A DNA stretch of 64,000 bases. It comes from Thermococcus piezophilus (GTDB taxonomy: Archaea; Methanobacteriota_B; Thermococci; Thermococcales; Thermococcaceae). A program made the position numbers and the translations under genes. The DNA lies in NCBI RefSeq assembly GCF_001647085.1, contig NZ_CP015520.1:1818219-1882218 (forward strand). Reading direction: 5' to 3'. The notes beneath the pieces are model-generated. The model was not told where the DNA came from. It was given only the letters and a program-made list of their open reading frames with translations, and searched no databases. Below are positions 32,474 to 35,617 of the stretch, in pieces; the first letter of the stretch is position 1; the number at the start of each line of letters is the position of its first letter.

Positions 32474-32560
32474 GGCGATGGCGTCCGCCCGGGCTTCGAG
32501 CCGAACCGCCCGTTTTGGGCTGATGACGCCTGTTCCCTGCCAGAGATAGCGGGAGGCGGT
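32474..32560 (+). ncRNA. fluoride riboswitch (crcB motif) with translational expression platform
   Basis: The core matches the fluoride aptamer. P1 is GGCG (32474-32477) with CGCC (32486-32489); its loop carries AUG and GGCGUC (32480-32485), which pairs with GACGCC (32525-32530) as the pseudoknot. P2 is GCCC (32508-32511) with GGGC (32517-32520), followed by the conserved UGAUGA. An extra hairpin (GGCU-UCG-AGCC) fills the variable loop. Downstream, CCUGC (32536-32540) can pair with GCGGG at the Shine-Dalgarno. ACCGCC (32505-32510), partly in P2, can pair instead with GGCGGU (32555-32560). These pairings suggest ribosome-site control. The operon includes crcB, which supports the assignment. 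Confidence 0.88.
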
Positions 32561-32563
32561 AGA

Positions 32564-33421
32564 ATGGGCTCGAAGCTGAGTGAGATTGGCAGGTTTATTA
32601 ACGCTGATGCGCTCATCCGCTACGTTGAGGATAGGCGCCACGAGGACGGCGGCTACTGCTTCGTGAGCGTTTTGAATGAGACCAATATTAACGACACGTA
32701 CTACGCGGTAAAGATTTACGACCCGCTCGGGCTCGAAATTCCTGAGAGGGAGAAGACAGTGGAGTTCCTTTACACTTCCGCTCAGATGCAGACCGCGGTG
32801 GTGGCCGTTGCAATGGCCATCGAGGCACTGTCATTACTGGGAGCGAGAGACCTGGCAAGAGAAAAGCTGGATCTGCTCTTCTCCAAATACAACCCGCTAG
32901 AAGGGAAGTTCGCCGTCGGCCTCGGAGGAAGTGAGGAGTTCGGAACTGCCACACCCCTGGAGGCTACCTACTGGGCCATGAGGGCGCTGGCGGCCGTGGG
33001 TTACCGTATGGACGGCGAGACTAAAGAAAGGATACGCGAGTTCGTAATGGGGTTCCGCGAGGGAGACGGCTTCGGGGTGAAGGGGGCCACCACAACCATG
33101 ACTTACCAAGCCCTCTTCACCCTCAAAGGCCTTGGCTATGCCGTCCAAGACACTACCCACTTCTACAGATGCGAGGTCTACGGTGGCTTTACCGAGGTGC
33201 CCTACTCGCTGCCCCCCTACCTAGAGCCGACGTTCTATGCTATAAGAGGTCTCAGTCTGCTAGACAAGAGGGCGCGCTATGTAGAGGACCATATCAGGTT
33301 CATCCGGGCACTGCAGAACCCCAACGGAGGCTTCAGGCGCTCGCTGGAGATGGGTATATCTAACTTCCAGAACACTTACAGAGCCGTGAAAGCCCTCGAC
33401 GAACTCCTGAAGTGGTACTGA
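32564..33421 (+). CDS. alpha-toroid repeat protein (prenyltransferase/squalene-cyclase-like fold)
   Basis: The start is ATG 32564 (MGSKLSEIGRF) after GGGAGGCGGTAGA, directly behind the riboswitch; 285 residues. Repeats carry the glycine-rich turn typical of prenyltransferase and terpene-cyclase alpha-toroids: RHEDGGYCF, GKFAVGLGG, REGDGFGVKG and QNPNGGFRR. The inferred fold is an alpha-alpha barrel. No DxDD or DDxD catalytic motif is evident, so it may be a binding or scaffold protein. As first gene of the fluoride operon its role is unexplained. Its stop overlaps the next start (TGATG). Confidence 0.75.
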   Translation: MGSKLSEIGRFINADALIRYVEDRRHEDGGYCFVSVLNETNINDTYYAVKIYDPLGLEIPEREKTVEFLYTSAQMQTAVVAVAMAIEALSLLGARDLAREKLDLLFSKYNPLEGKFAVGLGGSEEFGTATPLEATYWAMRALAAVGYRMDGETKERIREFVMGFREGDGFGVKGATTTMTYQALFTLKGLGYAVQDTTHFYRCEVYGGFTEVPYSLPPYLEPTFYAIRGLSLLDKRARYVEDHIRFIRALQNPNGGFRRSLEMGISNFQNTYRAVKALDELLKWY

Positions 33422-34113
33422 TGGATATCGTGGGAATATACCTCAGGGAGGCTATGAAGGAGGGCTGCCCAATCTGCAGGATACTCAGGGAGTACGAGGA
33501 GTCTGAAATCGATACAATACTCTACGAGCACGTGAACGACCCCGCTGTTAGGACCAAGTTCAAGGAGAGCCTTGGCCTCTGCACCTACCACGCCTGGAAG
33601 ACCCTCAAAAAGGCCTACTCGAACCCGCTGCTCGGCCCGCTGGGAGTGGCGATAATCTACGAGCACATGCTTTCAACGTACATCAAAACCCTCGAAAGCC
33701 GGGAAAAAGTTAAGGAAGGCGAGTGCTTCCTGTGCCTTCTCGTGGAGGAGAAGGAAAAGGACACGGTGGAGGCTATCGCGGAGAGAATTGAGGAGCTCCT
33801 GCCCGTTTACGAGTCATCGGAGGCAATCCTCTGCAAAAGGCACTACGAGATGATAGGCTCAATCCTCAGGGAGAAAAATCCCCAGAGTGCGGAGAGGCTC
33901 AGAAAAGTCCAGCTGGAGAAGCTGAAGAAGCTCAGGGAAAAAATGAACTCTCTCATAGACAAATTCGACTATAGAGCAACCGAAAGGCCCACAAAAGAAG
34001 AGGTCTCATCACTTCCACGGGTTATAGAGGCGCTTAAAGGGCTCAAAAACGGAGCAACCTTAAGGAAGAAGGAGCGAAAAAGGCGGGTGAGGAGCGTTTT
34101 GCTATGGAGATAG
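33421..34113 (+). CDS. DUF6062-like cysteine-rich helical protein
   Basis: This 230-residue, mostly helical protein starts at ATG 33421 inside the previous stop. It has two similar modules, each with a CxxC pair and a later Cys/His: CPICRILREYEES with LCTYHAWK, then CFLCLLVEEKEKD with LCKRHYEMI. This tandem arrangement suggests two zinc or iron-sulfur sites. It resembles the DUF6062 family. The C-terminal 40 residues are very basic (KKERKRRVRS). Function unknown; position 2 in the fluoride operon. Confidence 0.7.
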   Translation: MDIVGIYLREAMKEGCPICRILREYEESEIDTILYEHVNDPAVRTKFKESLGLCTYHAWKTLKKAYSNPLLGPLGVAIIYEHMLSTYIKTLESREKVKEGECFLCLLVEEKEKDTVEAIAERIEELLPVYESSEAILCKRHYEMIGSILREKNPQSAERLRKVQLEKLKKLREKMNSLIDKFDYRATERPTKEEVSSLPRVIEALKGLKNGATLRKKERKRRVRSVLLWR

Positions 34114-34418
34114 AAGTAAGTTCCGAGGAGCTGGCTGAGATACGGAGGAACCGGCGGGAGATAGTGATGCGCTTCAAAGACCTGGAAGGGCTTGAGAAAA
34201 CCCTAAAAGCCCTCAAGTTGCAGTTCCTCCTGGAGCAGAGGGCCAGGCTGGAGAAGAGGCTCAACGAGATGAGGAGAAACTATTGCGAGCTGCTTGAGTT
34301 TGAGGATAAGGCAAAGAGGGATAAGGAGTTTTTGATGGTCTTTAGGAAGGAACTCAGCGAGGAGAACAAAAGTCTTAGAAAAGAGCTGGAGGAAAAGAGG
34401 GATGAAAATAACCGTTAA
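34104..34418 (+). CDS. coiled-coil protein of the fluoride operon
   Basis: The 104-residue protein from ATG 34104 is nearly all heptad-like helix: VSSEELAEIRRNRREIV, LEKTLKALKLQFLLEQ, KELSEENKSLRKELEEK. There is no membrane segment. The start overlaps the end of the previous gene by ten bases and its end overlaps the next start by 17. The tight overlaps imply co-translation with the ribbon-helix-helix protein, perhaps as a partner. No family recognised. Confidence 0.65.
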   Translation: MEIEVSSEELAEIRRNRREIVMRFKDLEGLEKTLKALKLQFLLEQRARLEKRLNEMRRNYCELLEFEDKAKRDKEFLMVFRKELSEENKSLRKELEEKRDENNR

Positions 34419-34827
34419 GCCGCGGAGGGGCTGGCGGAGGGTTACTTTCAGGATTCCAGATGAGACCCTCAAAAGGATAGAGGAACTGTGCGAGCGCTAC
34501 GGCTTCAGGCCGGAGGAGGCCATAAGGATAATACTCCTCCAGGGCTATGTGAATGATGGAGTCGACGCCGACGAGGAGGCCTTTGAAAAGCTTGAGAAGG
34601 ATATAGATGCTCTTGAAAAGGAGCTGTACGAGCTTGAAGGGAAGTGGTCGCCCCTGAAGTTCCGCTCCTATTATATAGCGCTCGACAACCAGAACCTCGG
34701 AATCCAGCTCTCCGGAATGATGGCGGAGAACAAGAGGCTGAGAAAGTTACTCGGGAAGGAGGGGAGAGACTTCTCGGAAGTTGAGGAGCTGATTCACTAC
34801 TACATGGCCTTTGGGGACAAGGATTAA
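34402..34827 (+). CDS. ribbon-helix-helix protein with coiled-coil tail
   Basis: Residues about 1-50 fit a ribbon-helix-helix (CopG/Arc-like) fold: the strand RRVTFRIPDETLKRIEELC and helix YGFRPEEAIRIILLQGYV. A coiled coil follows (FEKLEKDIDALEKELYELEGK) and a second helical part (MMAENKRLRKLL). RHH proteins bind DNA as dimers through the N-terminal strand, so this may be a second, protein-level regulator of the operon. Target unknown. It lies 33 bases before crcB. Confidence 0.7.
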   Translation: MKITVKPRRGWRRVTFRIPDETLKRIEELCERYGFRPEEAIRIILLQGYVNDGVDADEEAFEKLEKDIDALEKELYELEGKWSPLKFRSYYIALDNQNLGIQLSGMMAENKRLRKLLGKEGRDFSEVEELIHYYMAFGDKD

Positions 34828-34860
34828 AAGAGACCCTGCACATGGTTCGGCGGTGATGGA

Positions 34861-35232
34861 ATGAACGGCAGGATAGCGGTGGCGATAGCACTCGGCGGTG
34901 CCCTTGGAGCGCTGGCGCGCTTTTACATCTCGGGAATAATGCCTGTTTACAGGGACCTCCCCGTTGGAACTCTGCTCGTCAACAGCATAGCCAGCTTCAT
35001 ACTCGGTTACCTCTACGGCCTCCTCTTCTGGGGAATTGACGTTCCGGCAGACTGGAGGACCTTCTTCGGAACGGGCTTCTGCGGTGGCCTGAGCACTTTT
35101 TCAACCTTCTCCTATGAGACATTCTCGCTCATGAGGGAGAAGGAATACCTTTTAGCTCTCCTGAACGTCTCGGCAAACGTTATAATCACGATTGCATTAG
35201 TCTTTGCAGGCTTTGTCCTTTCCAGGAGGTGA
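34861..35232 (+). CDS. crcB: fluoride channel CrcB/Fluc
   Basis: Fluc channels are small dual-topology membrane proteins that export fluoride. The 123 residues have four hydrophobic helices and all family marks: [12 protein letters not shown] near the N-terminus, [18 protein letters not shown], and the pore signature [19 protein letters not shown] with its Phe/Thr/Ser track. Start ATG 34861, after GGTGATGGA. A riboswitch of the matching ligand class lies at the head of the operon 2.4 kb upstream. Confidence 0.93.
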
Positions 35233-35236
35233 TAGA

Positions 35237-35617
35237 ATGGTCGAGGTTGAGCACTGGAACACGCTCCGCCTCAGGATTTACATAGGGGAAAACGACCGCT
35301 GGGACGGGAAGCCCCTCTACAAAGCGATAGTTGGAAAGCTCCGCGAGATGGGCATCGCTGGTGCTACTGTTTATCGTGGACTCTACGGCTTCGGGAAGAA
35401 GAGCAAAATTCACTCCACCGATGTAATGAGGCTCTCCACGGATTTACCCATCATTGTCGAGGCCGTGGACAGGGGCTACAAGATAGAGAAAGCAATCTGC
35501 GAGATAAAGCCGATGATAAAGGACGGCATGATAACGGTCGAGCCAACTATCGTGGTCTGGGTCGGAACCGCGGAGGAAGTCAAGAAGTTCAAGGAAGATG
35601 CAATTAGGGAGGAATAG
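35237..35617 (+). CDS. DUF190 family protein
   Basis: The 126-residue protein starts at ATG 35237 behind AGGAGGTGATAGA, one of the strongest ribosome sites in the window. It has the PII-like ferredoxin fold of DUF190: [53 protein letters not shown]190 proteins often sit next to crcB, which suggests a regulatory or sensing role for the channel. It is the last gene of the fluoride operon. Confidence 0.85.

Follow-up and report, generated by a model that had tools for sequence, protein, structure and literature searches.

A fluoride riboswitch of Thermococcus piezophilus lies directly upstream of the gene for an uncharacterised alpha/alpha-toroid protein, here termed T, within a 64,000-nucleotide (nt) stretch of contig NZ_CP015520.1 (assembly GCF_001647085.1, positions 1,818,219 to 1,882,218), which is referred to as the window. 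The same pairing of riboswitch and gene recurs throughout the Thermococcaceae, where aptamers preceding T carry an insert complementary to the region around the T start codon. The element likely acts on translation as an ON-type fluoride riboswitch, with T as its direct target throughout the family; the fluoride channel gene crcB is not a constant partner. To our knowledge, current understanding of fluoride resistance is almost entirely one of export, through Fluc and CLC-F, and of known metabolic targets. The present analysis points to a major role in the archaeal fluoride response for a protein that is uncharacterised. Since a fluoride sensor has T as its unvarying target across an archaeal family, a further protein-level response appears to await discovery. 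The features that carry this argument are as follows.

32440..32454, + strand: promoter motif ACAAACGTTTTTAAC, comprising a transcription factor B recognition element (BRE) and TATA box, from a motif model of 52 T promoters
32465..32539, + strand: fluoride riboswitch aptamer, with P1 starting at 32474, from the RF01734 covariance model
32491..32510, + strand: candidate anti-start element, consisting of the hairpin insert GGGCUUCGAGCC in the junction between P1 and P2 (J1/2) and a conserved ACCGCC, from complementarity to the T start region
32549..32577, + strand: its target, comprising the Shine-Dalgarno (SD) sequence GGGAGGCGGU, the start codon and T codons 2-5 (AUGGGCUCGAAGCU), from codon constraint
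32564..33421, + strand: T, alpha/alpha-toroid protein of 285 amino acids (aa), PF00432 at 46.9 bits (cut-off 26.5)

The riboswitch and its partner gene across Thermococcaceae

In the window, cmscan places RF01734 on the + strand at 52.3 bits, above the gathering score of 34 (E 1.2e-11 over the 64 kb), and a genome-wide search finds no other copy in T. piezophilus. The match, 32465-32539, covers 32474-32533, where the initial annotation had placed the element. The aptamer is complete, with P1 (GGCG/CGCC), P2 (GCCC/GGGC), the pseudoknot (GGCGUC/GACGCC) and CUGAUGACGCC, and across 28 relatives its P1, P2 and pseudoknot pairing is kept in 99.2% of cells, with compensatory changes at two pairs. The BRE/TATA motif ends about 20 nt upstream of P1, and most T-promoter motifs in relatives end 19-24 nt upstream. 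Transcription is therefore expected to begin at the aptamer, with a predicted transcription start site (TSS) at about 32472-32474. Transcription of the riboswitch RNA has been reported in T. kodakarensis, where the mapped crcB RNA is 86 nt long, in agreement with a 5' end at the aptamer (PMC4247193). The covariance match and the promoter motif thus bear out the earlier description of a complete aptamer just 3' of a TATA box.

The riboswitch is present in 88 of the 94 Thermococcaceae genomes surveyed, and in all 88 T is the gene immediately 3' of one riboswitch. This adjacency was established by script for 52 loci and by comparing riboswitch and T coordinates for the remaining 36. A few T genes contain a frameshift or stop, possibly through assembly errors. 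The six genomes without a riboswitch comprise four incomplete assemblies in which no T was detected, plus G012 and G080. In G080 (L126), the aptamer and most of T are lost together and crcB-DUF190 is retained. In G012 (L125, a Pyrococcus-type genus), the 5' part of the aptamer is gone, T and its start remain, and no crcB is detectable. The complete adjacency and the co-loss in G080 together indicate that riboswitch and T are nearly always kept or lost together, independently of crcB.

The T. kodakarensis riboswitch precedes TK0513 and not crcB, a placement on which the authors of that study remark with surprise (PMC4247193). The window element is very likely the same RNA and T is likely the orthologue of TK0513; the T-then-crcB order in genome G024 parallels TK0513-then-TK0514. 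That study covers one genome, to which the present analysis adds the family-wide linkage of T, the co-loss and the anti-start element. In the literature searched, neither the family-wide link nor the anti-start insert is described, although Speed et al. 2018 may have modelled part of this, and a search on DUF6062 and TK0513 returned nothing beyond PMC4247193.

Downstream of the riboswitch, the open reading frame (ORF) list gives the order T-C-K-R-crcB-DUF190, all on the + strand.

33421..34113, + strand: C, DUF6062-like helical protein, PF19538 at 75.9 bits (cut-off 27)
34104..34418, + strand: K, coiled-coil protein, no Pfam match above cut-off
34402..34827, + strand: R, ribbon-helix-helix-like N-terminus and coiled coil, RHH_1 at 18.7 bits (cut-off 20.5)
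34861..35232, + strand: crcB, Fluc fluoride channel, PF02537 at 104.3 bits and TIGR00494 equivalog at 98.9 (cut-off 80.45)
35237..35617, + strand: DUF190 (COG1993), PF02641 at 127.1 bits (cut-off 23.4)

The gene identities proposed in the initial annotation largely stand, with the Prenyltrans toroid, DUF6062, CRCB and DUF190 matches above their Pfam cut-offs and RHH_1 just below. Its picture of overlapping or closely spaced genes ending in crcB and DUF190 likewise agrees with the coordinates, as T/C, C/K and K/R overlap by 1, 10 and 17 nt, and gaps of 33 nt and 4 nt separate R from crcB and crcB from DUF190.

This layout could reflect a single six-gene fluoride operon with export through CrcB at its centre and the four genes upstream co-expressed as helpers, a reading that we regard as rather unlikely. 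It draws on the tight spacing in this genome and on the full six-gene order, shared by 27 of the 52 homologous loci read. Upstream of crcB, the window holds only a weak TATA-like motif (score 6.6, under the 95% background level of 7.6), which, with the 33-nt gap, makes read-through from the riboswitch possible, and the window crcB may lie on the riboswitch transcript. Across the family, however, organisation of the operon around crcB is not supported as a rule. In nine of the 52 loci, T is followed by crcB and tblastn finds no C, K or R, and another count of nine gives the loci with no crcB within the stretch read; in Pyrococcus-type genomes crcB is sited elsewhere. Scored with the T-promoter model, the region upstream of crcB rises above the 95% background level in 18 of 43 cases, as against 0 of 33 for C, and a conserved, lower-scoring CCCAAAATCTTAAGT is common to seven further crcB upstream regions. 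A primary TSS has been mapped between TK0513 and crcB in T. kodakarensis (PMC4247193). In G013, G017, G023 and G033 (L031, L035, L042, L052), the T unit and crcB are separated by a gap of 1.3-3 kb that holds an opposite-strand gene, cation/H+ antiporter-like in sequence appearance, as distinct from a family search; antiporters are a common partner of fluoride riboswitches in bacteria (PMC11139923). In addition, a crcB with its own SD sequence would escape control by a translational switch at T alone.

DUF190 follows crcB in every T locus in which crcB was found and is thus the constant partner of crcB. The two genes show the same adjacency as known Fluc/CrcB and DUF190 systems, with scores above the family cut-offs, and are tied only loosely to the T riboswitch across the family. 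They would represent a second fluoride module, often with its own promoter and in this genome possibly read through.

The candidate anti-start element and the proposed switch

Between P1 and P2, aptamers before T in the Thermococcaceae contain an insert, about 11 nt long, that lies outside the Rfam consensus. In the window, this insert and ACCGCC are complementary to GGCGGU-AGAAU-GGGCUCGAAGC, which covers the SD sequence, the start codon region and T codons 2-5. The predicted insert/start duplex has an energy of -32.3 kcal/mol in the window and ranges from -24 to -39.5 kcal/mol among relatives whose insert is normal. The element shares the aptamer core, pseudoknot, P1/P2 and location in the 5' untranslated region with other RF01734 riboswitches. 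It differs from them in having a J1/2 hairpin insert complementary to the start of the downstream gene, and in a constant target that is not crcB, CLC-F, enolase, pyrophosphatase or any other listed fluoride gene.

The T start is constrained at the level of individual codons. Counting genes in which the residue is kept, codon 2 is GGC in 49/49, codon 3 is TCG in 48/51 and codon 4 is AAG in 48/48; TCG makes up 10% of serine codons in T genes, and of all four-fold and six-fold columns in T, codons 2 and 3 respectively vary the least. The start motif ATGGGCTCGRAG is found in 48 of 52 T genes. The four genes without it all have an aptamer whose insert has been lost or changed, and they belong to four distinct branches of the T tree; the predicted duplex in these exceptions drops to between -5 and -18 kcal/mol. 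A lost or altered insert occurs in five T genes altogether, the fifth being G041. In the alignment, 93.3% of the pairs of the OFF helix are kept, compared with at most 47% when the strands are slid by 1-3 columns.

These features suggest how the switch could operate. Without fluoride, the J1/2 insert and ACCGCC would pair with the SD sequence, the start codon region and T codons 2-5, turning translation off. Because the RNA is made 5' to 3', the aptamer would fold before the T start region. Once Mg-fluoride is bound, the pseudoknot and P2 would lock ACCGCC, the insert would form a local hairpin, and the T start site would be free. C, K and R would follow T through translational coupling, since their starts overlap the preceding stop. 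The riboswitch, gene order, complementarity, codon constraint and co-loss are observed directly; we infer this direction of switching, this coupling and a role for T as an effector of the fluoride response. A fluoride-responsive riboswitch in T. kodakarensis is reported in PMC8241225, which cites Speed 2018 and describes it as presumably translational.

Folding predictions put the start region into a stable helix at both 37 and 85 °C. In the ON fold, where the aptamer is held with the local insert hairpin, the bases of this region are more open. Constraining P1, P2 and the pseudoknot alone was rejected as an opener of the start, as the insert-start helix stayed intact without the insert hairpin. 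Mutual exclusion of the two folds would therefore rest on ACCGCC and the local hairpin. At 85 °C, the OFF fold is predicted at -11.1 kcal/mol and the aptamer fold at +1.5 kcal/mol, the latter without pseudoknot energy.

Several observations weigh against this mechanism. At 37 °C, the OFF fold is predicted to be much the more stable, at -48.5 kcal/mol against -30.6 kcal/mol for the aptamer fold, to which the pseudoknot adds only about -10. The gap between the folds exceeds what the pseudoknot repays, so switching would have to be kinetic, that is, co-transcriptional. G041 combines an altered insert with an unchanged T start and partial pairing, G012 retains the T start motif with most of its aptamer lost, and the ACCGCC part of the pairing is weakened in some genomes. 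The OFF helix shows no compensatory double changes and does not exceed shuffles. We attribute this lack of covariation to a helix that is too conserved; covariation was dropped as proof, and the codon-level and co-loss evidence was used instead.

Control might instead be transcriptional, through leader termination or stability, with the 86-nt RNA of T. kodakarensis as a terminated product. The discrete size of this RNA fits such a scheme (PMC4247193), as does the report that predicted terminators often overlap crcB motifs (PMC2864571). However, neither the window nor the relatives read have a U-run after the aptamer, which disfavours an intrinsic terminator, and the constraint reaches codons 2-4, which termination would not need. 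We consider transcriptional control decidedly unlikely. It is very improbable that the invariant start reflects selection on the protein N-terminus: MGSKL is nearly invariant, yet synonymous sites are constrained as much as residues, and genes without a normal insert use MVSKF, MTSKL, MSTKL, or MGSKL with TCA. A role chiefly as a trans-acting small RNA, directed at other mRNAs, would suit the short, growth-phase-dependent RNA reported in T. kodakarensis (PMC4247193) and is more improbable still, given that in each genome with the riboswitch the RNA sits in cis ahead of T, and that it is complementary to the start of T itself.

If the anti-start insert acts as proposed, it would provide a simple account of archaeal riboswitch action at high temperature and would explain the extra hairpin beyond the Rfam consensus. 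Few natural archaeal riboswitches are known to us.

Candidate roles of T, C, K and R

T is strongly conserved, with 78% mean column identity across Thermococcaceae. Its AlphaFold model (predicted local distance difference test, pLDDT, of 91) finds its best Foldseek matches in Rab geranylgeranyltransferase beta and squalene-hopene cyclase (E 2e-6). T shares the alpha/alpha-toroid fold of PF00432 with protein prenyltransferase beta subunits and with squalene-hopene and other type II terpene cyclases; it differs in being less than 20% identical to solved members, in lacking DxDD and in having no alpha-subunit gene at the locus. An assignment of T as a class II terpene cyclase was rejected by this test, because the alignment shows no DxDD motif in the window protein. 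Invariant stretches that include DGGYCF, NDTY, GLGGSEEFG, GGFT, SLPPY and NGGFRRS suggest a conserved binding cavity. A strict-motif search of about 85,000 genomes returned T in Thermococcales only.

It is about an even proposition that T is a dedicated Thermococcaceae fluoride-response protein, protecting a fluoride target or altering the isoprenoid membrane, under a riboswitch whose aptamer-internal hairpin is the antisense of the start codon region and so represents a new kind of expression platform. The genetics of T. kodakarensis make the role of T testable straight away.

C lies beside T in all 57 of its copies across Thermococcaceae and is often lost. It has two invariant CxxC/CxxH sites (C16, C19, C54 and H57; C102, C105, C138 and H141), which are probably zinc sites. 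Its structure model (pLDDT 86) has no fold match in the PDB. K shows 44% identity over 66 aa (E 4e-5, a single comparison) to a coiled-coil protein beside a PIN-domain gene in G024. K and R are each missing from some genomes, and 93 of 94 encode an R-like protein, which is usually a second copy at a distance from T; the G024 paralogue has a neighbourhood without evident fluoride genes. Both proteins look like small regulators. Being dispensable, and with an R paralogue away from T in nearly every genome, K and R are the weakest fluoride candidates. Thus, of the four non-crcB genes that the initial annotation assigned to a fluoride response, the case is strong for T through its complete adjacency, extends to C by linkage and is weak for K and R.

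A toroid gene also occurs in a class-level relative. At L121:5612-8487 (- strand), a fluoride riboswitch (35.7 bits) is located between crcB-DUF190 and a dynamin-like GTPase gene, which is followed by a 101-aa ORF and the toroid protein gene. This toroid was considered as a T orthologue and rejected: the full-length hhalign match has an E of 5e-10, but a large toroid protein from the genome of the window scores nearly equally (3.7e-7), so the match reflects fold similarity only.

Fluoride riboswitches are already known before DNA repair, ion transport and formate hydrogenlyase genes (PMC2864571), and before antiporter, enolase and pyrophosphatase genes (PMC11139923). A second, shorter fluoride riboswitch is present in 15 of the genomes and heads an operon for a complex-I-like, group 4 hydrogenase of the formate-hydrogenlyase type, with Pfam families checked at one locus. 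The ribosome-binding site GGAGGTGACGCC occurs at all nine second-riboswitch loci read (L040, L072, L073, L075, L077, L080, L082, L083 and L086) and repeats the pseudoknot strand GACGCC, which suggests a decoy-pseudoknot expression platform.

Elsewhere in the window, the divergent neighbour at 31740-32381 (- strand) encodes an archaemetzincin (Peptidase_M54, 155 bits). The region 3' of DUF190 (35655-36438) contains broken open frames, the last of which matches the C-terminal half of DUF835 (83 bits), and resembles a decayed gene. Further upstream, 27425-27680 holds clustered regularly interspaced short palindromic repeats (CRISPR) of GTTGCAATAAGACTCTAGGAGAATTGAAA, with at least four full copies and a degenerate last one; two of the repeats reach the Rfam cut-off.

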